A stretch of DNA of 64,000 bases, taken from contig CP092876.1 in NCBI GenBank assembly GCA_030710605.1, positions 61,814,115 through 61,878,114 of the forward strand, read 5' to 3'. The position numbers and the translations under genes were made by a program. This DNA comes from Cordylochernes scorpioides. Lineage: Eukaryota > Arthropoda > Arachnida > Pseudoscorpiones > Chernetidae. Positions 5,077 through 62,789 of the stretch are shown piece by piece; the stretch's first letter is position 1; each line of letters opens with the position of its first letter. The notes below the pieces were generated by a model. The model saw only the letters and a list, made by a program, of their open reading frames with translations. It made no database searches and was not told the DNA's origin.

Positions 5077-5570
5077 TAAAAATAAAGAAGGCATTTTCTG
5101 ACCACGAGCGCATGAGCTTTTTAGATGGCAGAGCGCCATCTAGTGAAGCAAAAATAAACTAAACGTCTATTTAGCTTGCTCCGTGATATTTGGCCAACTC
5201 AACTTTTAATATCAACACCTGACCCACTTATCTTTTATTTTTTTCTATTGTTTTTTCATGTGTTAAGCGTATTTATACAAATTTGACCTTAAATACCCAT
5301 TTCTTGGTTTCTCAAGAAGCTTCTGGGACAAAATATATTTTTGGAGGCAGTGGTTACAGCCTACTCCACGCTAAAGAGCGCCAACAGCGCGAAACGCGTT
5401 CGTGGATGGCTTTTTTTGATTTATCAAGAAATTGGGTTGGCCATATATCACGGAGCAAGCTAAATAAACGTTTAGTTTATTTTTGCGCCACTAGATGGCG
5501 CTCTGCGATCTAAAATGCACATGTGCTTGTGGTCAGGAAATGCCTTCTTTATTTTATTATCAACACCTGA
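5077..5570. mobile_element. Inverted-repeat element (~490 bp, arms ~125 bp)
   Basis: The left arm (5077-5205, with AATAAAGAAGGCATT, AGAGCGCCATCTAGTG, AAATAAACTAAACG and TAGCTTGCTCCGTGATAT) is repeated inverted at about 5437-5570. The centre (5206-5436) has no intact ORF. Matching arms also flank the Tc1-like element at 18140-19800, and 13225-13290 resembles part of the centre. Class unknown: a non-autonomous TIR element is likely. Confidence 0.7.
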
Positions 5571-10583: not shown

Positions 10584-10988
10584 AGTAGAACTGCTCTTCA
10601 CAGAAGGTTAATAACGAGTTTACAAGGTGGGAAGAGGAGCTTCTTTTTATTAGCATGCACACAAGCTTTCGGACATATCGTCCTTCATCAGGTAAGAGTA
10701 ATAAACGCGCTGAGGATCCATATATACACAAAGCTGAAAAGAAAATTTACATAACTGCAAAAGATAAAAGTATTTAAAGATATAAAAATAAGAATCAAAT
10801 ATGCTAAAAAGAATATAGGAATTAAATGCTAATAAATCTGGACTAAGTACATATGCACTATGAATGGTGTTAATCAAGGGCAGGTAAATGCAACCTATGG
10901 CTATTCACACAACATATGGTATTGTTCCGGTATATCTATATGCCTGTTGATGCTGTTTGTTTTTATTGACACAAATGCCTCTAGTAAG
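10584..10988 (-). mobile_element. 5'-truncated Penelope-like element inserted in the Tigger gene
   Basis: A 12-bp direct repeat (TTTGTAAGTTTA at 10572-10583 and 10989-11000) flanks 405 bp of foreign DNA. On the minus strand the insert begins with the last ~28 codons of a PLE protein (ending NRHIDIPEQYHMLCE, stop at 10901-10903). These align with the C terminus of the PLE at 43944-46232 (NRKIDLPDIYQILYK). A 3' UTR follows, then a hammerhead-type core, then AATAAAAAGAAG and CTCCTCTT blocks shared with the 3' end of the 43944 element. This is a target-primed retroposition product with 5' truncation. Confidence 0.9.
10667..10692 (-). ncRNA. Hammerhead-ribozyme-type core in the PLE 3' region
   Basis: The minus strand reads CTGATGA (conserved core), A, GGAC, a 5-nt loop, GTCC (stem II), then GAAA. 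GC...GC and UA follow as a possible short stem III with a UH cleavage site. PLEs are known to carry hammerhead motifs in their terminal repeats. I did not model stem I, so catalytic activity is not claimed. Confidence 0.7.
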
Positions 10989-25555: not shown

Positions 25556-26975
25556 CCCACGCAGGCCATTAAGCGAGCCACATCGCAGGCTACACAGCAG
25601 ACGACAGAGCAGGTCATACAGCAAACCACACCGCAGACCACACAGCAAGAAACACCGCTGGTCACACAGCGAGCCACACCGTAGTTCACACAGCGAGGCA
25701 CACCGCAGCCACACCGCGGGTCACACAGCGAGCCACACCGCATGTCACACAGCGAGCCACATTGAAGGTCACACAGCGAGCCACACCGTAGGTCACACAG
25801 CGAGCCACACCGCATGTCACACAGCGAGCCACACCGTAGGTCACACAGCGAGCCACACCGTAGGTCACACAGCGAGCCACACCGCATGTCACACAGCGAG
25901 CCACACCGTAGGTCACACAGCGAGCCACACCGTAGGTCACACAGCGAGCCACACCGCATGTCACACAGCGAGCCACACCGTAGGTCACACAGCGAGCCAC
26001 ACCGTAGGTCACACAGCGAGCCACACCGCATGTCACACAGCGAGCCACATTGTAGGTCACACAGCGAGCCACACCGCATGTCACACAGCGAGCCACACCG
26101 CATGTCACACAGCGAGCCACATTGTAGGTCACACAGCGAGCCACACCGTAGGTCACACAGCGAGCCACACCGCGGGTCACACAGCGAGCCACACCATAGT
26201 TCACACAGCGAGGCACAGCGCAGCTACACCGTGGGTCACACAGCGATCCACACCGTAGTTCACACAGCGAGCCACACCACAGCCATACCGCGGGTCACAC
26301 AGCGAGCCACACCGCATGTCACACAGCGAGCCACATTCTAGGTCACACAGCGAGCCACACCGTAGGTCACGCAGCGAGCCACACCGCAGGCCACACAGCG
26401 AGCCACACCGCAGCCACACCGCGGGTCACACAGCGAGGCACACCGCAGCCACACCGCGGGTCACACATGGAGCCACACCGTAGTTCACACAGCGAGCCAC
26501 ACCGCGGGTCACACAGCGAGGCACACCGCATCCACACCGCGGGTCACACCGCAGCCACACAGCGAGCCACACCGCAGCCACACAGCGAGCCACACCGCAG
26601 GCCACACAGCGAGCCACACCGCAGGCTACACCGCGGGTCACACAGCGAGCCACACCGTAGGTCACACAGCGAGCCACACCGCAGCCACACAGCGAGCCAC
26701 ACCGCAGCCACACAGCGAGCCACACCGCAGCCACACAGCGAGCCACACCGCATCCACACCGCAGGTCACACAGCGAGCCACACCGCAGCCACACCACAGG
26801 TCACACAGCGAGCCACACCGCAGCCACACAGCGAGCCACACCGCAGGCCACACCGCAGCCACACAGCGAGCCACACCGCAGGTCACACAGCGAGCCACAC
26901 CGCAGCTACACAGCGAGCCACACCGCAGCCACAAAGCGAGCCACACCGCAGCCACACAGCGAGCCACACCAGACT
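25556..26975. repeat. GC-rich 24-bp minisatellite with 72-bp higher-order structure
   Basis: About 1.4 kb built on CACACAGCGAGCCACACCGN. In 25740-26190 it runs in 24-bp steps, and the variable tail cycles CGCATG, CGTAGG, CGTAGG, a 72-bp higher-order unit. From about 26400 on, shorter variants ending CGCAGC mix 22- and 15-bp-type steps. Because 24 is a multiple of 3, long frames stay open on both strands: SHSEPHRR-type repeats on plus, and RCGSLCDL and ARCVTYGV types on minus. These frames have no N-terminal context, so I treat them as non-coding satellite. Confidence 0.95.
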
Positions 26976-27085
26976 TAATCAAATCGCCGTCGGCCAAGGG
27001 ATGATGTTCGAGATTTCTCAAGGGAGAAGGATCATTATCTTCTTGCTTCTGGTCCAGCTTGCCGCTACACCTGACCTGATCCATT
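26976..27085. other. Unique segment between two satellites
   Basis: About 110 bp of mixed composition with no recognised function. Confidence 0.35.
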
Positions 27086-28430
27086 ATCCTTGTAACCTTG
27101 TCTCTCCTTGGTCTATTGTTCTGGTATTTTATCTGATACCTTTTACCTTATATTGTTCTGGTAGCTCTACCTAATCTATAGTTTTAGTGACTTTGTTCTA
27201 CTTGACCTATTTTTCTTGTGATTTTGTATTTATCGGATAAATGTATTTGTGAGCTTTGTCTCTAGCCGTTCTATTTTTCTCGTAATTTTCTTTTTACCAG
27301 ATTAACTCTTTTAGTATTTCATTTGTACCATATATTTTACTTGTGAATTTACCTAATTTATTGTTTCGGTGATTTTGTATCTACATGACCCATTTATTTG
27401 CAAACTTTGTCTTTACCTCTCTCAATCAGTACTCTGTTGTTGTCGTTGTCGTGTCCAATGAAGAGTCTCAGATCTCTCCATGAATCTTTATCATTGCAGT
27501 TGCAATATCTTCTATATTTGGTGTGTAAAGATGCTGTTCTGGGTCCATGTCTATATTCTGCAAGACTGCGGCCTTTCCTGGGCATGAGAATATGCGGGTA
27601 GTTGTTAGTTCCACACCAGTACAAATTTTGCATGTCCTGTAGGTTCTTGTGCCATCTGGATATATTGTAATTCCTTCGAAGTGTTTCCTTCTGAATCTTG
27701 TTAACTCAATGTTCTGATTACTTTATATTCACCTAAACCATTGTTATAGTAACGTTGTTCTTACTCAATCCATTGTTCTGGTAACTTTGTCTCTACCTAA
27801 GCCGATTTTCTGGTAGCCCTCTCTTCGCCTAAGTCATTGTCCTGGTAACCTTCTCTTCACCTCATTGTCCTGGTTACTTTTCTTTACTTGAGTCATTGTT
27901 CTGGAAATTTTGTTTTATCCAAGCCAATGTTCTTGTAACTTTAACTAATCCATTGTTCTGGTAAAATTAACTACTCCTTTGTAGTGATAATTTTATGTTT
28001 ACCCTTGATTGATTCTTTCTGTGTATACCAGATTTATTGTTCTGGTTAATTCATATTTACCTAATCCATTGTTTTGATTACTTTGTCCTTACTCTTTCCA
28101 TTGTACTGGTAAAGTTGTCTGCTTGCCTATTATTCTTCTAATTTTGTATATATATGTTTATTTTACTTGTATCTTTCTCTTTACATAAGCATATGTTCTG
28201 TTAACTTTATTTTTACCTGATTCATTGTCCTGGTAACATCAATTAATTCATTGTTTCAGTATTTCTGTGTTTAATTTATTAAATGTTTTGGTAATTCTGC
28301 ATCTACAAATTACTTGTTATGGTGATATTTACTCTACCAATTTATTTTCTTGGTGACGTTTGTTTTTACCTGATTTATTGTTCTGTTAATTTTGATTCTA
28401 CCTGATCGATTTTTCTTGCTAACCCTGAAC
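27086..28430 (+). repeat. Degenerate ~32-bp minisatellite
   Basis: The unit is close to ATTGTTCTGGTAACTTTG followed by TCTCTACCTAAGCC, repeated dozens of times with many substitutions. Interrupted by a LINE fragment at about 27420-27690. Non-coding. Confidence 0.85.
27415..27690 (-). pseudogene. LINE (non-LTR retrotransposon) ORF2 C-terminal fragment 1
   Basis: On the minus strand one frame reads PDGTRTYRTCKICTG, then TTRIFSCPGKAAVLQNI and a HLYTPNIEDIATAMIKIHGE block. This is the CxxC..H/C-rich zinc-finger tail found at the end of many LINE ORF2 proteins. A stop follows IHGEI. It sits inside the 32-bp minisatellite and is clearly a dead 5'-truncated insertion. The match to the second fragment at 30722-31000 supports the call. 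Confidence 0.65.
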
Positions 28431-34317: not shown

Positions 34318-34535
34318 TGTTGGACTTAATTACCAAGCTTATTATCATTGATTATATTTTATTGATATTTGGCTACTCTGTTGTTTGTTGATTGTTCGAT
34401 AGCACATTTATTAATTAGATTGCTGTATTTCCCATATATATATTTTTCTTCCTATTATGTTTTAATTGTAATGTTTGTAATGATTAAATAAAATCATTAA
34501 TCTAAAAACTCCTTCATTAATTAAAACTTCCTTCA
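34318..34535 (+). repeat. Copia 5' LTR
   Basis: Begins TGTTGGACTTAATTACC and ends AAAACTTCCTTCA. Contains AATAAAATCATTAATC as a possible polyadenylation region. Matches 38802-39019. Confidence 0.95.
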
Positions 34536-34554: not shown

Positions 34555-34671
34555 TTCTCCCACCGCGCAAATAAAAAAAAAGGCTTAATAAAAAAGGCTT
34601 AAGTCGAGCGTCAACATTCTTGAAAATAAATCTAATTTACCGAAAAGGTAAGATATACACATATTCAGAAA

Positions 34672-37600
34672 ATGGAGAATAGTGTACAAGTTCCCAAATT
34701 TGACGGGAAAAACTTCGCTTCTTGGAAATTTAGGATCGTATCAATTTTAGAAGGCAAAGAATTGGACGACCTTTTGGAATGTGATCCACCAGAAGATGAA
34801 GTTAAATTCAAAGAATGGAAGAAGAAAGATGCTCAAGCTAAAGGAATCATCACATGTGCAATGACTGACTCCTTAGTCGCCTTAATATTAAATTGCAAAA
34901 CAAGCAAAAATATTTGGATAGCGCTGCATGAAAGATATGAAGGAGAGAAAAAGAAAAATATCATTGAGGCCCGAAACGACGTTTCAAGATTGACAATGAA
35001 GAAAGAAGAAAATTGGGAAGAATATCTATACAGATCAGAGAAGCTATTAGAACAAGCAAGAAACCTTGGTGCAGAGATAGAAGATCAAGAATTCACCACT
35101 TCAGTGATCAGAGGACTACCCCAAAAGTACAACCTTGTTGCACTTCAACTGAATTCCCAAATGAAGGTAAGCATTTCTGATCTTAAAAATTGCTTAAAAC
35201 TATACCATGAAAGATTCACTCATGAAGAAAAGGAAGGAAATTCCAAAGCATTCAATACAATACATAAAGAATCTTTCTCAAACAGTAAGCATTTCCACAA
35301 AAATAGAAATAGTAATAAGCCTATTTGTTTCATATGTGCTAAGCCTGGCCACAAGGCTATAGAATGTTGGCATAATCCTAAAAATAATAGAGCGAGTGAA
35401 AATAAACAAACCTCAAAGAATAAACCTGAACATCAAAATAAGGCAAAATTTGTAAATTTGCAACCTGAGGAACATGTGTCCAACATCAAAGAATATGAAA
35501 CTACTCAACAACCTGAAGAATGGGTGATTGATAGTGGGGCTAGCTGTCACATGACATCAAATAGAGATCTATTAAAGGAAGAAAGAGAGGTTCACAAAAC
35601 AATAAAACTTGCAGATGACTCTGAAATAATATCCAATGCAGAAGGAGCAATTGAAATTGAAGGACAGAATAAGTTGATTAGGCTTAATGATGTCCTATAT
35701 GTTGAAAAATTGTCAGGTAACTTAATGTCTGTTAACAAACTGGTAGATGACAATAAAAAAGTACTTTTTGATAAGGATGGAGGACATATAATGGAGGAAG
35801 ATGGAGAGGAAATTTTGATGGCCCAAAGAATAAATGATTTCTACATAATCAAAACATCAGCACCAGAAGAAATTCCATCACAGGCTTTAAAGGCTACTCT
35901 TCATACCTGGAATGATTGGCACAAAAGATTGGGACACCTAAATGAAGAATACATGAAGCAAATGTTGAAGAATAATTCAGCTCACAATTTCAATACCCAA
36001 TCCCAGAATATGGACACTTGTCAAGTTTGTATTCAGGCCAAACATCCTAGAACACCCTTCAAACCAGTTCTATATCCTCAATCTACTAGACCATTGGACT
36101 TAATACATATTGATTTGATTGGACCTATTCAAGAGGAATCAATTGGAGGTGCTAAATATGTATTAACACTTGTTGATGACTTTTCTAGAAAAATATTTGT
36201 AGAATTTCTCTCATCCAAATTGGAAACTTTTGACATCATCAGATCTTTCATTGAAGAAATTGAAAAGGAAAAAGAAATCAAAGTCAAACAATTAAGATCA
36301 GATAATGGAAAAGAATTCACAAATAATCAAATGACTCAATATTTAAAAGGTAAAGGCATAAAGCACCAACTGACAAATGTTTACACACCCCAACAAAATG
36401 GTATCTCAGAAAGGTATAACAGAACACTGATTGAAGGAACAAGAGCTTTGCTGATAGACTCACAACTTCCATTGAGATATTGGGCAGAAACAATGTCAAC
36501 CTTTGCTTATTTGAAAAATAGAACACCTTGTAAAAAATTGGGATGGGTAACTCCTGAAGAGAGATTTTCAAATAGAAAGCCAACTGTAGCTCATCTAAAG
36601 ATATTTGGATGCATAGCTTACTACTATGTACACAAGCACAAAAGAGGAAAATTTCAACCTACAGCCAAGGCTGGAATATTTGTTGGATATTCAAGCACAA
36701 GAAAGGCTTGGAGACTAATTGATCCTGAAAATGAAAATGTAATTGAAACAAGAGATGTTAAATTTCTTGAAAATAAATTAGGAAAGGAAATACTAAACAA
36801 AAATGATTCAGATGACACTCAAAAATATTTACTTTACAATTTTCCAGAAGAGACTATCCCAGAAACTTCTGAAGAAGTAGAAAATCATGATGATCATTCT
36901 CATTCTGATCTTGAAAATCAAGATGAACATTCTGAACTTCCTTACAATCTCAGACCAAATTTGAAAGATAAACTTTACTATGAGCTTTCTTCAGATGATG
37001 AACCTATTGAAGACAATGAAGACAAAGATCCCACCTATGATCCAACTGTAGGAGCACTCAAGCTTTCCCATGGAAACTTGCTACCATCATCTTATGAAGA
37101 AGCAATTAATCATCCTGATTCACCTTTGTGGCAACAAGCAATGGATAAGGAAATTCATTCACTTCAGAACCATCATGTATGGGACCTTACTGAATTACCT
37201 GAAGGTGCTAAAGCAATAAAATCCAAATGGATATTTTCAAAGAAAATGGATCCTCAAACCAATCAGGAGATCTACAAAGCAAGACTTGTTGCTTTGGGCT
37301 GCTCTCAGGAATATGGGACAGACTACACAGAAACCTTTTCTCCAGTGATGAAAACAGATTCATTCAGAACTCTTCTAGCCTATGCTACAATGGCAGGATA
37401 TGAATTTCACCACTTTGATGTTGAAACAGCATTCCTGTATGGGAAACTTTCAGAGACCATCTACATGACCCAACCTCCAGGCTACCAGGATGACAAGAAA
37501 AAGACCTCTGTATGTATACTAAATCAGGCATTGTATGGACTTAAGCAGAGTGGTAGGGTATGGTATGAAACATTTACAGAATACCTTTTTGAAATAGGTT

Positions 37601-38622
37601 TAACACAACTTAAATCTGATAAATGTGTTTTTACTTTTAGAAATGGCAATTCACATTTACTTTTAGGACTGCATGTTGATGATATGATAATCATTAATTC
37701 TAATCCTGAAATTTTGCATGATATAATACAAAAAATAAGACTTCACTTCAAGATAAAGGAAAGTCTAACAACTTGTAACATTTTAGGCATTGAAATTATT
37801 AAAGAGGATGTTAGACTGATTTTAAAACAGGAAAATTACATAAATAAAATTTTACAAAAATATAACATGCAAGATTGCGAGCATATTTCAACCCCATTAG
37901 ATCCTAACACTAATTTAGATAATTTTAATAGCTCTAAGGAAGTCAATAAGACTCAATATCAAGAATTAATAGGCACTTTGCTTTATCTCTCAACTAAATC
38001 TAGGCCTGATATTGCCTTTGCAGTTACTCTTTTAAGCAGATATAATCAAAACCCTAGAGAAATGCACATGAGTGCAGCTAAGAGAATTCTTAGGTATTTA
38101 AAAGGAACTAAGCAGTGTAGATTAATATATACTAAAGGAGATGTCGAATTAAAGGCTTACACAGATGCATCATGGATTTGTGGCAGATCCAATACAGCAA
38201 GATCAACTGCTGGATTAACCTTTTATTTAGATAAAAATCTCATTTCTTGGTCAAGTAAGACTATTAATAACACATGTCTTTCAACTTGTGATAGCGAAAT
38301 ATGTGGATTACTTCAAACTGTAAAAAAGGCCATTTACATCCAATACTTATTTGAAGAAATTACATCTAATTTTGTTAAAATACAAATATTTTGTGATAAC
38401 AAAGCATCAATATTTTTGACTAAGTCTGGTCAAACAACTGATAAATCTAATCATTTAGTTAGATCTATTGCTTTTTTACATGAGAAATTGAAAAATAATA
38501 TTTTTGACATTCAATATGTAAAAACTGAAGACAACATTTCTGACTTTTTAACAAAGGCTTTATCAAAGGAAAAATTAATCCATTTGTTATCTTTATTTAA
38601 TTATAACACCAACTCTATGTAA
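34672..38622 (+). CDS. Copia gag-pol polyprotein (1316 aa), intact
   Basis: One open frame encodes all Copia functions in the Ty1/copia order. Gag comes first, with a CCHC zinc knuckle at residues about 219-232 (CFICAKPGHKAIEC) that binds RNA. An aspartic protease with DSGA at about 287-290 follows. Integrase has an HHCC zinc site (HKRLGHLN at about 417, CQVC at about 450) and a DDE core (Asp about 480 in HIDLIGP, Asp about 544 in DNGKEF, Glu about 580 in ISERYNR). Reverse transcriptase carries ALYGLKQSGR (about 954) and the catalytic HVDD box (about 1001-1004). RNase H has YTDASW (about 1162). The length is normal for the family and no stop or frameshift is seen. The protein would assemble a cytoplasmic particle, copy the RNA to DNA and integrate it. 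It is a single frame, as in many insect copias, where Gag excess is usually made by splicing. I did not find a clear splice donor by eye. Confidence 0.97.
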   Translation: MENSVQVPKFDGKNFASWKFRIVSILEGKELDDLLECDPPEDEVKFKEWKKKDAQAKGIITCAMTDSLVALILNCKTSKNIWIALHERYEGEKKKNIIEARNDVSRLTMKKEENWEEYLYRSEKLLEQARNLGAEIEDQEFTTSVIRGLPQKYNLVALQLNSQMKVSISDLKNCLKLYHERFTHEEKEGNSKAFNTIHKESFSNSKHFHKNRNSNKPICFICAKPGHKAIECWHNPKNNRASENKQTSKNKPEHQNKAKFVNLQPEEHVSNIKEYETTQQPEEWVIDSGASCHMTSNRDLLKEEREVHKTIKLADDSEIISNAEGAIEIEGQNKLIRLNDVLYVEKLSGNLMSVNKLVDDNKKVLFDKDGGHIMEEDGEEILMAQRINDFYIIKTSAPEEIPSQALKATLHTWNDWHKRLGHLNEEYMKQMLKNNSAHNFNTQSQNMDTCQVCIQAKHPRTPFKPVLYPQSTRPLDLIHIDLIGPIQEESIGGAKYVLTLVDDFSRKIFVEFLSSKLETFDIIRSFIEEIEKEKEIKVKQLRSDNGKEFTNNQMTQYLKGKGIKHQLTNVYTPQQNGISERYNRTLIEGTRALLIDSQLPLRYWAETMSTFAYLKNRTPCKKLGWVTPEERFSNRKPTVAHLKIFGCIAYYYVHKHKRGKFQPTAKAGIFVGYSSTRKAWRLIDPENENVIETRDVKFLENKLGKEILNKNDSDDTQKYLLYNFPEETIPETSEEVENHDDHSHSDLENQDEHSELPYNLRPNLKDKLYYELSSDDEPIEDNEDKDPTYDPTVGALKLSHGNLLPSSYEEAINHPDSPLWQQAMDKEIHSLQNHHVWDLTELPEGAKAIKSKWIFSKKMDPQTNQEIYKARLVALGCSQEYGTDYTETFSPVMKTDSFRTLLAYATMAGYEFHHFDVETAFLYGKLSETIYMTQPPGYQDDKKKTSVCILNQALYGLKQSGRVWYETFTEYLFEIGLTQLKSDKCVFTFRNGNSHLLLGLHVDDMIIINSNPEILHDIIQKIRLHFKIKESLTTCNILGIEIIKEDVRLILKQENYINKILQKYNMQDCEHISTPLDPNTNLDNFNSSKEVNKTQYQELIGTLLYLSTKSRPDIAFAVTLLSRYNQNPREMHMSAAKRILRYLKGTKQCRLIYTKGDVELKAYTDASWICGRSNTARSTAGLTFYLDKNLISWSSKTINNTCLSTCDSEICGLLQTVKKAIYIQYLFEEITSNFVKIQIFCDNKASIFLTKSGQTTDKSNHLVRSIAFLHEKLKNNIFDIQYVKTEDNISDFLTKALSKEKLIHLLSLFNYNTNSM

Positions 38623-39463: not shown

Positions 39464-39661
39464 ATTAGATAATAAAATGCATATATTGGATTTAATAAAA
39501 TATTTATTTTGCCAATATTTCGGCTGGCTGAACGCCAACCTTTATCGAGGCATCACATTTTTGTATACACAAATGTGATGCCTCGATAAAGGTTGGCGTT
39601 CAGCCAGCCGAAATATTGGCAAAATAAATATTTTATTAAATCCAATATATGCATTTTATTA

Positions 39662-40488: not shown

Positions 40489-40509
40489 CTCGGCCGCTGC
40501 GTCCTCCAT
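40489..40509 (-). other. N1 candidate first exon (7 codons) with splice donor
   Basis: The minus strand reads CACAATGGAGGACGCAGCGG then CCGAG|GTAGGT. It is the same segment as 50363-50383 in N2. In N1 it points away from N1's own ORF (it is downstream), so it could serve only a unit lying further toward lower coordinates. None is there. Confidence 0.5.
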
Positions 40510-43397: not shown

Positions 43398-43906
43398 CTT
43401 AGCGAGTTTAAATTAACATAAAAGAGGTGCTAACACTAATATGTTTGTAGTTTTTTTTAGTTTTTTTAGTTTGTTATTCTTATGAATTTTTAAATATATT
43501 TTACTTAATTGTTTTTGTGGTGATAAAATTTGTAATAAATTGAATAATTAATCTATAAATATATAGATATTACTGTTTGTTATCTGTTATATTTTTAAGA
43601 ATAACTAATAAAAAAAACATCTTTAAACTAACTAAACAATGAAAAAAACAAAAGTTCTGAAATTATTTTTTCTAGAATTACTTTTATAATTTAATTTTTA
43701 ATAATCAAACAATGAAAGATAATTAAAATTTGTATGAAGATTTATTTATATTAGAATATCTAATATAATTTAATTTGTATATTATGTTATATATAAAAAA
43801 TATATCATAGAGCAAGCTCATATGAATTAATATAGTGTAGAAACTATATAACAAAATTATAACAGTGATTCTAATTTTAAAACTTAAGGAGCAAACTGAT
43901 AATAAT

Positions 43907-43943
43907 ATTATATACACCAATTGGAAAAAAAAAAAAAAAAAAA
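43907..43943. other. Junction with an A-run
   Basis: About 17 bp of sequence and then more than 20 A residues separate the 5' end of N1 from the conventional PLE. The A-run could be the relic of a reverse-transcription junction. Confidence 0.5.
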
Positions 43944-46232
43944 AAGAAATCCCTACAACTGTCTAAATGGAGGCTTCATCTTACCTTTAACCTACATTGC
44001 AAGAAAGTCGGTTTCATCCCTCCGTCCCTTAGAATAAAAGATCCTGTCAAGAATCCATTCTCCTCAAAGCTCACCAGGAAGTTTCATTTGGACTTACTCG
44101 AGGCCAGAATACAAGGTTCTCATTCCAATATTAGATTCCTCTCCAGATCTATTAAAGGCCTCATCTTTCTTCTCCACCAGTTAATGTCTGCGGACGACAT
44201 TGCTAACCTAGTAAGATCCATCACCTTTAAGGTTCATCAACAAGAAATTTCGCTTAAGAATAGGCATCTATCAAAATTGGCATTTTGGAAAAGAAAATTT
44301 AATTTTCCTGATGTCGCCGAGTCCACGGGATCTGCTCTTCCCAACGTCCTAAATCTGTCTTCAACCAAGCTTTCTGATAGAGAGGAGAGGATCTTAGCGT
44401 TAGGTCTTCAATTCATCCCCCCAGCTAAACCGGACATCCCTAGAATAATTGCCGGAATCGAAGGCGTCACAAGGTCACTTAATCATCTTGAAACTCTTAA
44501 AGTACGAAACGCCGCAGTTCAAATTCTCAGCAGACCCTCACAGATACCACCTTCCAACAATAGACATCGCCAGATCATTAAGAAGTTGCAAAGTTACAAG
44601 TCTCTCATTTTCATTAAAGCTGACAAAGGAAGCCACACTGTCGTACTTGACCGCTCAGACTATCTTTCTAAGATGACGGACATTCTCCAGGACAACACTA
44701 CCTTTTCTTCCATTTCACCCCAGGAAAATCTTGCGTTGACCAAATCATTCAGAAAGGCGCTATGCGAAATGAAGAAATCCAGCATCATCACACCTGATCA
44801 ATTTGTCCTATTTACATCTTGCCTGGACAGGGAAGCTTATATTTATGGCTTGCCTAAGATACACAAGCCGGGGGTCCCACTCAGGCCCATAATAGCTTAT
44901 CATCTTTCTCCAGCCTACTCTGTAGCCAAGTTTTTGGTAAGTTTTTTGTCCCCTCTCATGAAAGACCATCCTAACACATATAGCATTACGCACCCCCCCA
45001 GTTTCATAGAAGACCTCCTTAATTTACAACCACCACCCCTACACAGTATGGTGTCTTTTGATGTCACGTCCTTATACCTCTCACTGCCACACTCTCTCAT
45101 TGCTGACAAGTTGCAATCGTTCCTGGTTGCCAATAACATTGACACACAAACAGCTTCCCATATCCTGCAACTGGCTTCTCTCTGCCTCTCTGTTTGCACT
45201 TTCACCTTTAACAAGCAGTTGTATAAACAGACCAGAGGAACCCCTATGGGTAGTCCCCTATCATCAATCATCTCTGAAATAGTCATGGGTTCTTTGGACG
45301 CGTGGATCAATCAAGCCCTCCCTTCCGATATTTACTATTGGAGGAGATATGTAGATGATATCTTTTGCATTATTAAAACAGACAGCCTTCAACTCACATA
45401 CAGCACCTTGCATGATTTCAACCCCCATATTAAGTTTACATACGAAACAGAAATAGGTTCTGTTTTACCTTTCCTAGACATCCTTATTATTCGCACCCCT
45501 CAGTCTTTTCACACCTCTGTTTTTCATAAGAAGCATATCCCTCCCCAATATACGCATTTCTCCTCCAATAGTCCCATCTCCTTTAAAATTAATACAGTCA
45601 GGACCTTAACTAAAAGAATTGTTACCCATTGTTCCTTACCCATTTTTAAAACAATAGAAAGATCTAGAATCCATTCCTTATTAACAACCGCTGGTTATCC
45701 CATAGATTTCATAGTAAAACATACTTTTGATCCAGGTGTCCAAAGAACCACTACAATTCACAAGGCCACTTGTTGGCTCCCGTTCTCCCCTGCCGCAGTA
45801 TCCATTTCCAGAGTCCTACGACCATACGGCATAAAAGTTCTCTACAATAGTCCCCCCAGCTTAGCCACCATCCTTAGACATCACATCACCAAATCTGACA
45901 AACCCACCCTACCCATAAACTCTACCGGCGCAGTTTATTCCATACAGTGCCTGGATTGCCCAACTTCTTATGTTGGAGAAACAGGAAGAACTACTGGCAT
46001 CCGTATTTCAGAGCACAGACGTAACATCCGCAATAAAGATCCCAAATCCTTAATTTTCACGCATATAGCACAAACAGGCCATAGTTTTGATCTCGACCAT
46101 CCTCAAGTTAAATATCGGCATATACATAACAAATATCACCGACTCTGCCTAGAATCTATTATTTCCACACAAAACAATAGTTGTAACCGCAAAATAGACC
46201 TCCCAGACATTTACCAGATACTTTATAAATAG
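43944..46232 (+). CDS. Penelope-type reverse transcriptase with C-terminal GIY-YIG endonuclease
   Basis: The frame is open from the A-run. The first 48 codons (with KWRLHLTFNLHCKKVGFIPP) resemble the usual PLE N terminus and precede the first possible start (TTG at 44088). RT motifs (residues counted from 44088): a YGLPKIHKPGVPLRPII block, MVSFDVTSLYLSLPH, QTRGTPMGSPLSS (about 384), YWRRYVDDIFCI (YVDD at about 421) and VLPFLDILI. The GIY-YIG nuclease follows: VYSIQCLDCPTSYVGETG (YVG near 627), RISEHRRNIRN, and CLESII with the catalytic Glu near 688, ending in the typical NRKIDLPDIYQIL. The nuclease nicks the target and the RT primes from the nick. No internal stop or frameshift is visible, so the enzyme domains look intact, but promoter and start are lost. 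Confidence 0.95.
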   Translation, partial: KKSLQLSKWRLHLTFNLHCKKVGFIPPSLRIKDPVKNPFSSKLTRKFHLDLLEARIQGSHSNIRFLSRSIKGLIFLLHQLMSADDIANLVRSITFKVHQQEISLKNRHLSKLAFWKRKFNFPDVAESTGSALPNVLNLSSTKLSDREERILALGLQFIPPAKPDIPRIIAGIEGVTRSLNHLETLKVRNAAVQILSRPSQIPPSNNRHRQIIKKLQSYKSLIFIKADKGSHTVVLDRSDYLSKMTDILQDNTTFSSISPQENLALTKSFRKALCEMKKSSIITPDQFVLFTSCLDREAYIYGLPKIHKPGVPLRPIIAYHLSPAYSVAKFLVSFLSPLMKDHPNTYSITHPPSFIEDLLNLQPPPLHSMVSFDVTSLYLSLPHSLIADKLQSFLVANNIDTQTASHILQLASLCLSVCTFTFNKQLYKQTRGTPMGSPLSSIISEIVMGSLDAWINQALPSDIYYWRRYVDDIFCIIKTDSLQLTYSTLHDFNPHIKFTYETEIGSVLPFLDILIIRTPQSFHTSVFHKKHIPPQYTHFSSNSPISFKINTVRTLTKRIVTHCSLPIFKTIERSRIHSLLTTAGYPIDFIVKHTFDPGVQRTTTIHKATCWLPFSPAAVSISRVLRPYGIKVLYNSPPSLATILRHHITKSDKPTLPINSTGAVYSIQCLDCPTSYVGETGRTTGIRISEHRRNIRNKDPKSLIFTHIAQTGHSFDLDHPQVKYRHIHNKYHRLCLESIISTQNNSCNRKIDLPDIYQILYK

Positions 46233-46910: not shown

Positions 46911-47475
46911 TAATTAATTTAGATTTAGCTTGCTAATCTAATCAAATCTAACTGATATAAGTTATCATTATTATCAGTTTGCTCCTTAAGTTTTAAAATT
47001 AGAATCACTGTTATAATTTTGTTATATAGTTTCTACACTATATTAATTCATATGAGCTTGCTCTATGATATATTTTTTATATATAACATAATATACAAAT
47101 TAAATTATATTAGATATTCTAATATAAATAAATCTTCATACAAATTTTAATTATCTTTCATTGTTTGATTATTAAAAATTAAATTATAAAAGTAATTCTA
47201 GAAAAAATAATTTCAGAACTTTTGTTTTTTTCATTGTTTAGTTAGTTTAAAGATGTTTTTTTTATTAGTTATTCTTAAAAATATAACAGATAACAAACAG
47301 TAATATCTATATATTTATAGATTAATTATTCAATTTATTACAAATTTTATCACCACAAAAACAATTAAGTAAAATATATTTAAAAATTCATAAGAATAAC
47401 AAACTAAAAAAACTAAAAAAAACTACAAACATATTAGTGTTAGCACCTCTTTTATGTTAATTTAAACTCGCTAAG

Positions 47476-50362: not shown

Positions 50363-50383
50363 ATGGAGGACGCAGCGGCCGAG
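50363..50383 (+). other. Candidate first exon for the next unit (ATG plus 7 codons, GTAGGT donor)
   Basis: CACAATGGAGGACGCAGCGG then CCGAG|GTAGGT. The ATG has purine at -3 and G at +4, and the donor matches the animal consensus. Splicing in phase 0 to the AG before 51745 in N3 would give MEDAAAE followed by NCLRKN... and supply the AUG missing from the main ORF. Inference, based on the sequence and on the known presence of introns in PLE terminal repeats. Confidence 0.6.
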
Positions 50384-50484
50384 GTAGGTTTACAGTTTGA
50401 ATTTGTTAACACTTGTATCTGTTATATATGTTCATTTAAATATTTCACTGAAACAACTTAATATTAACACATAAAATCCGGTTT

Positions 50485-50571
50485 AAAAGAGATCTATGAC
50501 ATGATAAAGAAGGGGTGAAATGTCGTTGGAATTTTATCTGAAGATCCCCGTTCCAGCAGTTCTCTTTTTCC
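50485..50571 (+). ncRNA. Candidate structured RNA in the N2 3' region
   Basis: The outer stem AAAAGAGATCT pairs with AGTTCTCTTTT (one mismatch here, none in N1 and N3). Inside are hairpin 1 (GACAT...ATGTC) and hairpin 2 (GTTGGAA...TTCCAGC). The first loop holds GGGG and the second holds CCCC, so a loop-loop kiss is possible. In N4/N5 hairpin 2 becomes GCTGAAA/TTTCAGC, where one G-C pair is replaced by A-T and a wobble by C-G. The loop also contains CTGAAGA (CTGATGA in N4), but the order does not fit a hammerhead. Confidence 0.55.
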
Positions 50572-51744
50572 AATTCATTTCAATTTAAAGTCTTTTGTGT
50601 ATGTCTGGTCTACCATTAGGGTTTCAAAACATAATATCCAAACTTATAACAAATGTTAATTCATACTATAGATATATTACTAAATACAACTATTTATAAT
50701 CATATTATAAAATAAAAAAACCTTTAAAAATCTTAAAAAAAAAAGGATAAAATATAAAATCATAAAAAAAAATATATATATATATACTAACAATCTTATC
50801 TACCTTCTTTATAAAACTCTTTTTTTTTTTTCCTTATTATTAGTTTGATTAAAGGTGCATGGTTCTGTCTTTCTCTCTTTTTTCTAACTATTATATATAT
50901 TCTCTCTTCGATTATTCTATATATAGGATTAGAGTATGTCTGAATGACGTGTAAAAGCCGATGTAATAGACGTTACTTTGTTAATTTTTATTGTTATTAA
51001 TTATAAATATATAATTAACTTGAGGATGTAGTAGAAGTAAAGGATTTTTTTTTTCTCTCTCTATCTACAAATTAATAACATTTTACAAATTTTATAATTT
51101 GAATTTAAATAATCATAATAGTGAAGATAATCTTAATACAAAACTGGACTATAAAATTAAATAACTATTTATTATTATAATTAATTTAGATTTAGCTTGC
51201 TAATCTATTCAAATCTAACTGATATAAGTTATCATTATTATCAGTTTGCTCCTTAAGTTTTAAAATTAGAATCACTGTTATAATTTTGTTATATAGTTTC
51301 TACACTATATTAATTCATATGAGCTTGCTCTATGATATATTTTTTATATATAACATAATATACAAATTAAATTATATTAGATATTCTAATATAAATAAAT
51401 CTTCATACAAATTTTAATTATCTTTCATTGTTTGATTATTAAAAATTAAATTATAAAAGTAATTCTAGAAAAAATAATTTCAGAACTTTTGTTTTTTTTC
51501 ATTGTTTAGTTAGTTTAAAGATGTTTTTTTTTATTAGTTATTCTTAAAAATATAACAGATAACAAACAGTAATATCTATATATTTATAGATTAATTATTC
51601 AATTTATTACAAATTTTATCACCACAAAAACAATTAAGTAAAATATATTTAAAAATTCATAAGAATAACAAACTAAAAAAACTAAAAAAAACTACAAACA
51701 TATTAGTGTTAGCACCTCTTTTATGTTAATTTAAACTCGCTAAG

Positions 51745-54632: not shown

Positions 54633-54653
54633 ATGGAGGACGCAGCGGCCGAG
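54633..54653 (+). other. N3 candidate first exon with GTAGGT donor
   Basis: Identical to 50363-50383. It would feed a unit further downstream, but the next unit is cut off at 55581, so it has no acceptor in the window. Confidence 0.5.
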
Positions 54654-56337: not shown

Positions 56338-57285
56338 CGACCATTCTTCGCACCTGAGAGATGTTTCTTCTCTAAGAGAAAATGTCCCTGTGGAGATATC
56401 CGACTCAGAACATGAGTGGGTGGCTTTTCCTCCGCCTGGGGGAGTTGGTCTTGATTTTCTGTCAGGGCTTGTCGCGGGATGTGTCTTTTTCTAGGAGGTT
56501 TTATTTTCCTTTGCGGCGGGGATGTTCTTCTCTGTTAGTGGTTGCTTTGGAGTTTTTGGCTGTGAAACTGGATTTAGGGCGTCAGCGAAGGATATTTTCA
56601 CTGTTTCCCTGATCTGCGGGGAAGAAGTTTTTCCCGCCCTCTACAATCACTCTAGAGGGGAGTGAGTGTTGAGGCGTCTCTGCGTGTTGTCCTCCGTAGG
56701 GGTGCCACTGACTGACGTCCAGTGAAGCTGTAAGCTGGCCGTCTTTCCTTGGTTGTCTGGGCGAGGCACACGTGTCTTGAAACTCTTGGGTCTTCGCTCT
56801 GTGTGTGCGTCATTGGGAGCGCCCTTGCCGTGCGCGAAAATTGCACCAGGGCTAGGCCTGGTGTTGAAAAACCAAGGGGTGCACACAGTAGTACCACCCC
56901 CCCGCCTCCGCGTCGGTTTCCCCGCGTCAACCTCAGAACCTCAGAGGTCCTTGATTCGACGGCAGATTCAGGGAGTACTGGGAACTAAGGGTTCGAGGGC
57001 TAAAGGGGGGGGAGTCCTATTGGAGCGTAGGACGGGTTCTTCTAAGTCCGACGAGAGGGCTCGGTCAGCAACCTTGCCAGTGACTCTCGATGACGCCTGT
57101 GGGTGAGTGGTCAACCCCAGAGAGCCAGACCATAATGGCGGGCGCGAGGGGCCTACCAATGGCCGCTCGGTGCATGGAGAATGCATCATTCCTTCTGGCT
57201 GTGTGTGGATCTAGATTTCAGCGAACTACAGGGGACGCAAGGGCCACTTTGAGCCTATATCGTCCCTGGCTTTGCCGAATTTCCT

Positions 57286-57430
57286 ATCTGTTTCCCTGAT
57301 CTGGGGGTCAAAATGCCCTTTTGACCCCCAGATCAGGGAAACAGATGGATGGAAAAATTCGGCTTTGTCTTTGACAAGCCAAATTTTTCCATCCATCTGT
57401 TTCCCTGATCTGGGGGTCAAAAGGGCATTT
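57286..57430. repeat. Alternating inverted repeat (three copies, + - +)
   Basis: CTGTTTCCCTGATCTGGGGG followed by TCAAAA occurs at 57290, then inverted at about 57320-57350, then direct again at about 57397-57425. ATCCATCTGTTT extensions are shared by the last two copies. It sits just downstream of the zinc knuckle on the minus strand. A related TTTCCCTGATCTG lies at 56600. Confidence 0.85.
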
Positions 57431-57526
57431 GGTGTTCGTGTGCCCATGCCTTCTACATGCGGTGCACACCACATCCTCACCGATGAAGACCTTAAAGGAT
57501 TGCTCCATATGGGTGATAGAAATCAT
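57308..57526 (-). pseudogene. Gag-like CCHC zinc-knuckle fragment
   Basis: The minus strand reads FKVFIGEDVVCTACRRHGHT and then NTKCP, a CX2CX4HX4C knuckle typical of retroelement Gag/ORF1 nucleic-acid binding. The frame then runs into the alternating inverted repeat and stops. Probably the upstream part of the same element as 55846-56337. Confidence 0.55.
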
Positions 57527-57537
57527 ATATATATATA

Positions 57538-57673
57538 TATATAGTGTAGAAACTATATAACAAAATTATAACAGTGATTCTAATTTTAAAAAATTTAAGG
57601 AGCAAACTGATAATAATGATAACTTATATCAGTTAGATTTGATTAGATTAGCAAGCTAAATCTAAATTAATTA
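57538..57673 (-). mobile_element. N4': first ~136 bp of a tandem unit (minus strand)
   Basis: Mirror counterpart of N3b: TA run, then AGTGTAGAAACTATATAAC and on to GCTAAATCTAAATTAATTA, immediately followed by the 3' end of N4. Confidence 0.9.
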
Positions 57674-58478: not shown

Positions 58479-58499
58479 CTTGACCGCTGCGTCCTCCAT
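58479..58499 (-). other. N4 candidate first exon with donor
   Basis: The minus strand reads ATGGAGGACGCAGCGGTCAA then G|GTAGGT (seven codons MEDAAVK). The frame, length and donor are kept despite two changes from the N1-N3 version. It would serve a unit at lower coordinates, but N4' is cut off before its acceptor. Confidence 0.5.
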
Positions 58500-58924
58500 T
58501 GTGTATATCTATTTCTGGCTTGCACATGTCGCGGGAGGGGAATGTCCCCCCACATTTCAAATTTAGACCATTTCTTCAGAATTTTTTTGAACAACAAGAA
58601 AATTAAAGAAGATAGGAAAAATAGTTAAAGGAAGAAAGCTAAGTTTTATAATCTTTACAGATAGTTATATCAAAATAACTGATTTAACACTTAATCATCT
58701 TTTAATATTCCTTTAAAAAGGCAAATTATAAGAGTTTAATAAAGCTATTAATTGTGCAAATTCATCTTTATTTAACTTCCATTTTCCTCCCCAGAAATTG
58801 GAGATTAAACAAAAATGAAATATATACTTTAAAACTTTAAAAATCTTGTGAAAAAATCTTTTAATCAGTTATTTAATAAAAGTTTAATTAACTGTTAAAG
58901 ATTATAAATTTGTTTTAGTTAATA

Positions 58925-61384
58925 TTAAGAGAAATTATAGAAAGTTGATTTCATAAATGGATATTTCCATTTATTTTTTTTTAAATATTTTATAATTGAT
59001 ATACTGTTGAAATATTTTACTTGTTTGATACTAAATTTGTTTTTAATAAATTCCATGTTTAAATTTTTAACATCTTCTATGAAATTATCTAATATATTAT
59101 TTATTCTATAAAATCTTAGAAACTGACCATAATATATACCTTTACAGCAATTTAATGATATATTAGAATTCATATTACAGTATTTTATAATATTGAAATT
59201 ATAATTACTCTTTTTATTATAAACTCTAACAGCACTATTTGTAAGGTCTATATTCAAGTCTAAAAAGTTAACTTTTTTGTTTCTATAAATTTTTTCATTG
59301 TTCTTAAGTTTCAAGTATTTAGGATATATTTCAGGTATTAATTTTTTAAACAGTGGATTATTAAATATTATTATGTCATCTACATATCGGAATATTTGCC
59401 AATTAATATTATTTTGTAGAAAGTATTCTCTTTCGTACCAGAACAATATTAAATTTGCTAGTAACGGACTAGAAGAAGTACCCATGGGAACGCCTTCTGA
59501 TTGAATATATATTTTATTTTTAAATTCTATATAGTTAAAATTTAAAAATGTTTCCAGTAGAGTTTTTGCTGTTTTAAGATCTAATTTAAATGTTTTATAT
59601 TTGTTATGAATAATTTTAATGTAGAAAGTTTTGTCATTAATTAATTCATTAAATAAATTGGTTATTTTATTATTTAGATCTCTTAAATTTATTTTAGAAT
59701 ATAGGTCCTCAAAGTCAAATGTGTGTACTGTTTCAATATTTGTCCAATTGTTCATTAAATAATTAATGATTTTTTTATTTGAGTCGATAAATTTATAATT
59801 ATATTTATTAGTTAATTTATTTATAATAAATTGTAGTGTTGAGGCTAATTGTATATCAATATTTTTTATGACTGAATTTATACCAGATGTGATTGTTCTG
59901 AAAGAAATAGGTTTTTTGTGTAGTTTAGGAATTATATAGAACTTTGGTATGTTTGGATTTTTGTGGTTATTATAAATTTTTAGTGAATTTTCAACATTTT
60001 TGATGTCTTTTTTGATTTTTGTGCCTGTAGTTCTAGCAAAAGTGTATTTATGATTATTATCAATTTCCTTTTTTAGTATATCGTGGTATAGATTTTTACA
60101 AATTAAAGATAAATTATTGGGACATTTATCTATAGGAGTGATAATATAGTCCTTCTGTAAATTAATTATATTTTCTTTGAAAGAAGGAATGTCTGAATTG
60201 GGTTTTGTGTATTTAAGTGTATTATTATAATAATTTAAAATTTCCTTTTTAATATTATGTTTCCATTCCAGAAAAGTAAATTCTGGAATACTGTATTTTA
60301 TACTAGTTTTATTTATGAAAATATCTATATCTTTTAATATAGATTTAATTGTATTATTATAATTGTGTTTAATTTGAGGTATATATTTATACCCTTTATT
60401 TAAAATTTCTTGATATTCTGGATTTAAAAAAGAAAAGTTGCTAGTTAATATATGACCTGAGTACTTATATTTATCAATATAGTTGTTGCAATTACATTTA
60501 ATTTTTTTAAAATTTGCCAAATTATTAATAAATTGGTTATAATTGCAAACTAAATTACCTATATTTTTATTGTATCTCCAGATTGTTTTAAAATTTAAAT
60601 TTTTTATAGGGAAAAGATTATTGATGATTTGGTTATTAAAAATATCATTAAATTTAATATGATTAAATAAATTGTTATTAAATTTAATGATAATATTAAT
60701 GTTATTAGTATTTTGTTTAATTTTTCTGTATTTAAAGATGTCGTGTGTGATATCTATTAATCTGTTAGTCAGATTATGAATTTTAATATATTCTATGAGT
60801 TTGATAAATTTATTATTATTTAGTTTAAATAATGTTTTAATAAATTTATCGACGAAGTTGTTAGTGTACATTTGTTTTGGGTCCAGTAATTCTTCAAATT
60901 CAATGTAACCTAATTTATTTGTAGTTTTACCTCTAGTTTTATTAGGTTTAGTTTTAAATTCATTTTTATATTTGCAACTGATTTCATAAGTTGAAATTTC
61001 TTCTGTTTGTGGTTTGTATGTGTAGTTTAATTCGTCGTTAAGTCCATAAGGGAATAATGTGTTGTGTTTATAAATGTAGTTGTTTTCTAATAATAGTCGT
61101 TGTTTTTTGTTTTGACATATGTCTAGTATTTCTATCTTAAAGTTGTTAAAAGTATGTAATTGATTGTGTTCTTTCATATATATATTACCAATTGATTTTT
61201 TAGCGTGGTTTCTATGTAGGTTTATTCGTATATTTAATGGGTTACAAGTTTGTCCTATATATGATAGTTGACAAATTTGGCATGTTAATTTATAAATAGT
61301 ATTCACTAATTTACAACTAGTTGTTTGAAAAGTGTCATGGTTCTTAAGAGAGGGACAAGTTTGACAATTTTTTCTTAGGCAATT
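58925..61384 (-). CDS. N4 GIY-YIG/reverse transcriptase, intact; best expression candidate
   Basis: Open from the inferred acceptor (61384) to the stop at 58925. There are 26 codons of Cys-rich extension and then 793 codons from GTG 61306. The zinc-like cysteines (NCLRKNCQTC...SC...TCQIC), GIY-YIG residues, RT boxes (PKLHKKP, FDFEDLY, GVPMGTSSSP, YVDD, FLDLNI) and the full C terminus (KKNKWKYPFMKSTFYNFS) are all present. With the 7-codon exon at 62769-62789 in N5 the predicted protein is 826 aa. It should nick DNA with its N-terminal nuclease and prime reverse transcription there. It is the only copy in the window with both an undamaged ORF and an upstream unit. Confidence 0.94.
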   Translation of the reverse strand, partial: NCLRKNCQTCPSLKNHDTFQTTSCKLVNTIYKLTCQICQLSYIGQTCNPLNIRINLHRNHAKKSIGNIYMKEHNQLHTFNNFKIEILDICQNKKQRLLLENNYIYKHNTLFPYGLNDELNYTYKPQTEEISTYEISCKYKNEFKTKPNKTRGKTTNKLGYIEFEELLDPKQMYTNNFVDKFIKTLFKLNNNKFIKLIEYIKIHNLTNRLIDITHDIFKYRKIKQNTNNINIIIKFNNNLFNHIKFNDIFNNQIINNLFPIKNLNFKTIWRYNKNIGNLVCNYNQFINNLANFKKIKCNCNNYIDKYKYSGHILTSNFSFLNPEYQEILNKGYKYIPQIKHNYNNTIKSILKDIDIFINKTSIKYSIPEFTFLEWKHNIKKEILNYYNNTLKYTKPNSDIPSFKENIINLQKDYIITPIDKCPNNLSLICKNLYHDILKKEIDNNHKYTFARTTGTKIKKDIKNVENSLKIYNNHKNPNIPKFYIIPKLHKKPISFRTITSGINSVIKNIDIQLASTLQFIINKLTNKYNYKFIDSNKKIINYLMNNWTNIETVHTFDFEDLYSKINLRDLNNKITNLFNELINDKTFYIKIIHNKYKTFKLDLKTAKTLLETFLNFNYIEFKNKIYIQSEGVPMGTSSSPLLANLILFWYEREYFLQNNINWQIFRYVDDIIIFNNPLFKKLIPEIYPKYLKLKNNEKIYRNKKVNFLDLNIDLTNSAVRVYNKKSNYNFNIIKYCNMNSNISLNCCKGIYYGQFLRFYRINNILDNFIEDVKNLNMEFIKNKFSIKQVKYFNSISIIKYLKKNKWKYPFMKSTFYNFS

Positions 61385-62768
61385 CTTAGCGAGTTTAAAT
61401 TAACATAAAAGAGGTGCTAACACTAATATGTTTGTAGTTTTTTTTAGTTTTTTTAGTTTGTTATTCTTATGAATTTTTTAAATATATTTTACTTAATTGT
61501 TTTTGTGGTGATAAAATTTGTAATAAATTGAATAATTAATCTATAAATATATAGATATTACTGTTTGTTATCTGTTATATTTTTAAGAATAACTAATAAA
61601 AAAAACATCTTTAAACTAACAAAAACACTGAAAAAAACAAAAGTTCTGAAATTATTTTTTTTTTCTAGAATTACTTTTATAATTTAATTTTTAATAATCA
61701 AACAATGAAAGATAATTAAAATTTGTATGAAGATTTATTTATATTAGAATATCTAATATAATTTAATTTGTATATTATGTTATATATAAAAAAAATATAT
61801 CATAGAGCAAGCTCATATGAATTAATATAGTGTAGAAACTATATAACAAAATTATAACAGTGATTCTAATTTTAAAAAATTTAAGGAGCAAACTGATAAT
61901 AATGATAACTTATATCAGTTAGATTTGATTAGATTAGCAAGCTAAATCTAAATTAATTATAATAATAAATAGTTATTTAATTTTATAGTCCAGTTTTGTA
62001 TTAAAATTATCTTCACTATTATGATCATTTAAATACAAATTATAAAATTTGTAAAATGTTATTAATTTGTAGATAGAGAGAGAAAAAAAAAAAAAAAAAT
62101 CCATTACTTCTTTTACATCCTCAAGTTAATTATATATTTATAATTAATAACAATAAAAAAAATTAACAAAGTAACGTCTATTACATCGGCTTTTACACGT
62201 CATTCAGACATACTCTAATCCTATATATAGAATAATCGAAGAGATAATATATATAATAGTTAGAAAAAAGAGAGAAAGACAGAACCATGCACTTTTAATC
62301 AAACTAATAATAAGGGAAAAAAAAAAGAGTTTTATAAAGAAGGTAGATAAAATTGTTAGTATATATATATATATTTTTTTATGATTTTATGTTTTATCCT
62401 TTTTTTTTTTTTTTTTTAAAGATTTTTAAAGGTTTTTTTATTTTATAATATGATTATAAATAGTTGTATTTAGTAATATATCTATAGTATGAATTAACAT
62501 TTGTTATAAGTTTGGATATTATGTTTTGAAACCCTAATGGTAGACCAGACATACACAAAAAACTTTAAATTGAAATAAATTGGAAAAAGAGATCTGCTGA
62601 AACGGGGATCATCAGATAAAATTTCAGCGACATTTCAACCCCTCCTTTATTATGTCATAGATCTCTTTTAAACCGTATTTTATGTGTTAATATTAAGTTG
62701 TTTCAGTGAAATATTTAAATGAACATATAACAGATACCAGTGTTAACAAATTCAAACTGTAAACCTAC
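61385..62768 (-). other. Inferred intron spanning the N5-N4 junction
   Basis: It starts GTAGGT (62768 downwards) and ends CTAAG|AATTGC (61385). About 1.38 kb, against 1.36 kb for the N2-N3 equivalent (50384-51744). It contains the structured RNA and the whole inter-unit junction. Not proven: only the donor, the acceptor AG and the phase agreement are seen. Confidence 0.45.
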
Positions 62769-62789
62769 CTTGACCGCTGCGTCCTCCAT
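62769..62789 (-). other. N5 candidate first exon with GTAGGT donor, positioned to serve N4
   Basis: Same as 58479-58499. It lies 1384 bases upstream of the N4 acceptor in the direction of transcription. Confidence 0.55.

Follow-up and report, generated by a model that had tools for sequence, protein, structure and literature searches.

The window analysed here, 64,000 nucleotides from the pseudoscorpion Cordylochernes scorpioides (contig CP092876.1 of assembly GCA_030710605.1, positions 61,814,115 to 61,878,114, in a genome of 2.62 Gb on 24 contigs), carries between 39.5 and 64 kb a series of tandem and inverted units of ~4.27–4.29 kb each, and our concern is the means by which the gene in these units may obtain its start codon. 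A full unit holds a single frame of ~820 codons with a GIY-YIG nuclease domain at the N-terminus and a reverse transcriptase (RT) at the C-terminus. Two subfamilies are present, A (58–64 kb) and B (40–55 kb), with ~2% divergence outside the open reading frame (ORF). In unit N2 of subfamily A this frame, identified from the ORF list and Pfam and treated below as exon 2, occupies 58925..61384, with the GIY-YIG domain at 61058..61300 (PF01541, residues 34–114, E = 8.1e-07, 29.7 bits against a cut-off of 22.6) and the RT domain at 59357..59920 (PF00078, RVT_1, E = 7.9e-09, 36 bits against a cut-off of 29.6), all on the minus strand; a Pfam search with the whole 824-residue frame in one piece returned no match at E ≤ 0.1. 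The AlphaFold model was of low confidence (pLDDT 39.1) and showed the order strand-strand-helix-helix-strand-helix. A CxC linker motif, CNC and then GHILTS, was recognised by eye in subfamily A and in the related family D described below. An N-terminal GIY-YIG with a C-terminal RT is the domain order of Naiad-type Penelope-like elements (PLEs), and the window family is a Naiad-like Penelope element with this permuted order. The Naiad clade, reportedly described by Craig et al. in 2021, is said to have the CxC linker and no canonical hammerhead. Naiads resemble the window family in their N-terminal GIY-YIG and C-terminal RT with CxC between them, in their tandem and inverted units with pseudo-long terminal repeats (pLTRs), and in having no Rfam hammerhead: our Rfam search found no hammerhead ribozyme in 38500–64000 at E ≤ 0.5, and at E ≤ 1 none within the element regions. 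A hammerhead as a step in transcript processing was rejected, the element being without an Rfam match.

The frame of subfamilies A and B is interrupted by a TAA five codons before the AG that precedes exon 2 (61400..61402, minus), and no methionine codon stands in frame ahead of the GIY-YIG core. An earlier note on this DNA had stated that there was no AUG ahead of the nuclease domain, which is correct for the frame itself; each of the 16 A/B leaders compared, 12 of them fetched from the genome and four in the window, does however carry an out-of-frame AUG (ATG TTA ATT TAA) at a distance of 22 nt from exon 2 (e.g., 61404..61406, minus, and in a subfamily B unit 47454..47456, plus). This out-of-frame leader has 2175 sites in the genome at ≤1 mismatch and its in-frame version three at ≤2 mismatches, one of them exact. 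At each of 100 listed places the leader is followed by the AG and the start of exon 2, whether or not these were included in the search pattern.

A candidate for the missing start codon is found in the 3′ region of the neighbouring unit. The sequence ATGGAGGACGCAGCGG followed by a GTAGGT donor begins at 62789, 58499 and 40509 (minus) and at 50363 and 54633 (plus), and the acceptor CTCGCTAAG/AATTGCC (a slash marks a splice site throughout) at 61393 and 43406 (minus) and at 47467 and 51736 (plus); all five exon-1 sites and all four acceptors lie where the earlier note had placed them, in phase 0. In unit N1 the predicted coding exon 1 (MEDAAVK) occupies 62769..62789, its 5′ splice site 62763..62768, the predicted intron of 1384 nt across the N1–N2 junction 61385..62768 and the predicted 3′ splice site (ctcgctaag) 61385..61386, all minus. 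Joining the two would give the frame MEDAAVK/NCLRKNCQTCPSL, both splice sites being in phase 0 (MEDAAVK/NCLRKNCQTC). The exons of subfamily B read MEDAAAE (40489..40509, minus; 50363..50383 and 54633..54653, plus), and the predicted intron there measures 1361 nt by coordinates (50384..51744, plus); frame and donor survive in B, as had been claimed, despite two differences from A within the 21-nt exon, both non-synonymous. Two of the exons have no unit after them: that of unit N2 (58479..58499, minus) is followed by other sequence from ~57520 down, and that at 54633..54653 by a TA-rich microsatellite in place of the next unit. (TA)n microsatellites adjoin the 3′ ends of the element at ~57520–57545 and from ~55450 onward, as if they were insertion sites.

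The GTAGGT is the strongest of the 119 GTs in the unit, scoring 6.07 against 3.10 for the next, and of the 5858 GTs in the whole window nine reach that score. An equally strong donor with a phase-0 open ATG and a purine at −3 arose in 31 of 4000 shuffles and in 2 of 108 native stretches. The conservation of this region was followed on contig 1 in 54 genomic intervals chosen by leader coordinate (L114–L129 and L131–L168; L130, a short leader stretch, was excluded), 45 of which held the exon region, those without it being L125, L126, L145, L151, L153, L154, L159, L166 and L168. The donor core AGGTA[AG]G was intact in 45 of 45 intervals with the exon anchor, a pattern that itself excludes the donor; at the rate of the exon itself about 11 donor changes would have arisen, and no more than two were seen. 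These comparisons lend good support to a conserved 5′ splice site. In 42 of the 45 copies an ATG in phase 0 is open to the donor, and 19 of 21 exon/donor haplotypes, window copies included, are in phase: besides the MEDAAVK of the window's A copies, the forms are MEDAAAE, MEDAAVE, MEDSTAE, MKDAAAE, MKDAAVK, MENAAVK, MEEAAAK and MEDIAAE. In a diverged subtype, MFTVEDAAGK and its kin, the old ATG is GTT and an ATG lies 9 nt (three codons) upstream in the same frame; the pattern for this MFTV type has 1367 genome sites and is matched by the F exons considered below as well. Among the 14 copies read far enough, some have the other upstream ATGs closed, missing or in a different phase. Conservation of the coding phase of exon 1 is moderately supported.

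Diverged families in the same genome, found by a genome protein search with a motif, place the missing start codon in context. Families D (L039/L041), C (L036, L038) and E (L034, L035) can all be aligned with A/B across the beginning of the frame, and they share a conserved ATG immediately ahead of the nuclease domain. In family D it is in frame in all 12 readable leaders of 13 loci (MFSKLA[KN]NC), and in family C in 27 of 28 readable leaders of 30 loci (MRIKIANKC and near variants). In A/B the homologous ATG is shared with these families but shifted one base out of frame. The earlier note had taken the missing AUG to be general to permuted PLEs, a claim that fails here: because C and D start at an in-frame leader AUG, its absence is a trait of A/B. 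In family E the in-frame ATG is closed by a TAA after one codon (ATG TTT TAA CCC) in both copies (~585–605 of L034 and of L035), so that this family, as read, can use no plain start and no acceptor of the A/B kind. The AG at the acceptor position is specific to A/B among the families read (AAA or AAC in D; AAC in C and E), and MEDAAVK/NC equals the MFSKLAK/NC of family D in length.

Family D, whose leaders have 247 genome sites at ≤1 mismatch, stands in tandem arrays and is without the MEDAA coding exon. At about the same distance after its ORF it carries a donor-like AATAA/GTAAGT in 16 of 16 aligned copies (18 D regions were tried, and two of 15 D intervals, L089 and L100, gave no match); in family C the 3′ regions (L084–L086, L061) broke off or gave way to foreign sequence beyond the ORF. 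The earlier note had reasoned that related full-length elements with an AUG directly before the GIY-YIG domain and no conserved donor would refute a split gene. Families C and D have that AUG, and in part go that way; they also lack the acceptor AG, and D lacks the MEDAA exon. The simplest history would be that the ancestor had a non-coding first exon and a junction-spanning intron in the 5′ untranslated region (UTR), and that this exon became coding in A/B upon the loss of frame of the leader AUG. Directly before the leader AUG there is a short hairpin-like stretch, GGGTTAGCACCCC, in families C and D; it is varied in E and weakened in A/B (GTGTTAGCACCTC, 61411–61423, minus).

The frame of A/B bears marks of constraint. 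Of 2457 ORF bases 10 distinguish subfamily A from subfamily B, five of the changes being synonymous, compared with 40 of 1801 non-coding bases between the ORF stop and exon 2. Among 16 ORF copies (the four in the window and 12 from contig 1, chosen by their out-of-frame leader, with L104, L108 and L113 clipped to the matching part) the 49 variants common to at least two copies comprised 29 synonymous, 19 non-synonymous and one stop, where 21.9% would be expected to be synonymous; this expectation uses a transition weight with which the non-coding differences (20 transitions, 20 transversions) agree. Judging by this substitution record, the A/B protein is probably made.

We consider it reasonably likely that the A/B gene is split across the junction of tandem units and takes its start codon from the upstream unit via splicing, as a lineage-specific arrangement. 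Transcription would begin within the 3′ part of the unit upstream; the first exon would consist of the ATG and six codons, or the ATG and nine in the diverged subfamily; and an intron across the unit junction (~1.36 kb in B and ~1.38 kb in A) would be removed, joining exon 1 to the frame of the next unit. The borrowed start would replace the leader AUG on which relatives still rely and which in A/B lies one base outside the frame, and a lone unit with neither a partial nor a full unit upstream would give no protein. The sequences show the anatomy of the units, the constraint on the ORF, the conserved donor, the kept phase and the own AUG of the relatives; the start of transcription, the splicing, the translation and the order of events are what we infer. 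The proposal of the earlier note that the start lies in the upstream unit and is joined by a junction intron is in this way supported for A/B, by the constrained ORF with no in-frame leader AUG, the donor (45/45) and the phase (42/45); for subfamily F, with 594 sites, it may or may not hold.

Several observations weigh against a split gene or temper the evidence for it. Three ATGs are open to the donor and together cover all three phases, and because donor-open ATGs occur in every phase, the phase match alone is weak evidence. The acceptor AG scores poorly, ranking 11th of 19 AGs in A and 12th of 18 in B, and stronger AGs lie upstream of it, two of which (−156 and −243) were read by hand and both run into stops. 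The persistence of the AG and exon-2 start after the leader is also expected of young copies. No spliced copy of the A-version junction was found genome-wide at ≤3 mismatches with a pattern of the A version and near variants; because PLEs keep introns, missing spliced retrocopies are weak counter-evidence and decide nothing. A tree simulation with the 18 in-phase exon haplotypes, those of F excluded, put the probability that every one stays in phase at p = 0.012 or 0.106 according to the assumed root, a modest result; it superseded a plain random placement of changes (0/5000) that ignored kinship. The residues of exon 1 are variable between copies, as would be expected if the AUG and the frame alone are needed. 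Regarding constraint, without the three diverged copies 8 of 20 shared variants are synonymous (p = 0.05), much of the signal thus coming from those three. The contrast of shared and singleton variants as a test of selection showed no difference (singletons 46/96 synonymous, Fisher p = 0.22) and is uninformative, because the singletons, intended as a neutral yardstick, are almost equally rich in synonymous changes. Homogenisation among units could also reduce ORF divergence, and either it or a swap of leaders by recombination could mislead part of the constraint signal.

Subfamily F adds to these adverse points, as an extra base puts its exon 1 out of phase (3 of the 45 copies: L123, L133 and L143). 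Since 594 genome sites match the F-type pattern, F is a real subfamily; it stands in tandem arrays of ~4.23 kb (e.g., G000:C1:42419064-42431775). On contig 1 below 167.9 Mb the exact A/B leader was the own leader of 3 of 21 F exons, and it lay 1.27–1.5 kb downstream of 0 of 21 F exons compared with 10 of 32 exact MED-type sites (Fisher p = 0.004, for array sites that are not independent) and with 7 of 42 MFTV-pattern sites, some of them F. Because the A/B leader is rare at F exons, most F units there carry another leader, which could restore the phase, contain an AUG of its own or contradict the model. We would give an even chance to the broader picture in which the gene start moved into the neighbouring copy and only concatemers are translated, relatives keep a plain AUG, and the phase of the exon co-evolves with the leader among subfamilies, with F as a second solution.

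Other explanations of the same features were weighed. The donor-like sequence that D keeps after its ORF without a coding exon, the better AGs upstream of the predicted acceptor, and the retention in A/B of the leader AUG and the bases next to it would all suit a reading in which exon 1 is a non-coding 5′-UTR exon in all families, spliced to a stronger leader AG, with A/B starting at the leader AUG and undergoing a +1 shift at AUU UAA A. We regard this as improbable: a +1 shift at UAA would need very high efficiency, and neither the keeping of the exon-1 phase nor the in-frame switch of start codon is explained by it. To a similar degree we doubt that exon 1 is kept as promoter DNA, that is, as a downstream promoter element (a motif such as GGACG or AGACG) and 5′ splice site, with its open phase coincidental. 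The invariance of CCAGAAATAGAT among the haplotypes read, the occurrence of AGACGCC also in D, and the high prior of a phase match when ATGs cover all three phases are consistent with such a role; against it, the promoter-like core is not strictly conserved (MFTVEG and MEDST types), and the remaining upstream ATGs are out of phase or closed in some copies, which happens to the phase-0 ATG only in F. Least probable, and in our estimation quite unlikely, is that A/B copies are untranslated and mobilised in trans by family D, which has an AUG of its own, for although D occurs in tandem arrays and has its 247 leader sites, the A/B frame seems to be under constraint and, by these patterns, the leader sites of A/B outnumber those of D about ninefold (2175 vs. 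247).

If the split gene is real, many A/B units would stay silent without another unit, full or partial, upstream of them, and the contention of the earlier note that tandem arrays are the functional form would follow for A/B. It fits what is known of PLEs, which typically occur as tandem or partial tandem copies. Among the first 100 leaders listed on contig 1, a full unit lay upstream in 23 and an opposite-strand leader within 6 kb in 30; the former count covers full units, and partial upstream units would also serve. An acceptor was within reach at 12 of 30 fetched exon-1 loci, all of which were chosen for identity to subfamily A.

We know of no Naiad with a start codon from an upstream unit. 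The Penelope element of Drosophila virilis, the subject of a reported study by Arkhipova et al. in 2003, and other intron-bearing PLEs are said to have a spliceosomal intron near the 5′ end and transcription from the upstream repeat. The virilis intron reportedly lies in the 5′ UTR and the ORF there has its own AUG, unlike the predicted intron of the window family, which would part the start codon from the frame. Intron-bearing tandem PLEs are already known, and the start codon in a neighbouring unit would be the new part; a literature search, outside which the main Naiad description fell, found no report of a start codon held by a neighbouring unit. A single IMG/VR scan for relatives elsewhere gave no match. 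Partial tandem copies of Penelope can be active, according to one report (PMC3846280). PAc, the Poseidon of Anolis, shares tandem units with the window family and has a pLTR in which the promoter is thought to lie and a multi-unit mRNA; unlike the window family it has an ORF with its own start codon, a hammerhead over the ORF start and a C-terminal nuclease (PMC11167929). The DRT2 defence system, with a repetitive gene arising only by concatenation (PMC12039810), would be similar in working without being kin; it differs in being bacterial, in relying on reverse transcription of a non-coding RNA and in involving no splicing.

Why PLEs stay tandem and keep introns is an old question, and a cross-unit gene, if true, would account for it directly. 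Natural controls would then be available within one genome, in sister families that have the split gene and sister families that do not. For annotators, a start-less frame in a tandem element is not necessarily dead.

Other features of the window lie outside the proposed mechanism. A second PLE frame, with an RT and then a weak C-terminal GIY-YIG-like match, stands between Naiad units at 43881..46232 (plus). Near-perfect palindromes occur near element ends at 39526–39605 and 57274–57363, with weak miRNA-family scores far under the gathering cut-offs. An open Copia-type frame of 1328 residues (gag, integrase, RVT_2) was found at 34636–38622, with identical 220-bp repeats at 34318 and 38802. A weak Hammerhead_HH9 match lies at 5355–5420 (plus; 25.9 bits, cut-off 52), and a CTGATGA...CGAAA stretch was seen by eye at ~10640–10691 (minus). 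Lastly, a 24-nt repeat array at 25611–26300 continues into a His/Thr-rich frame at 26200–27174.

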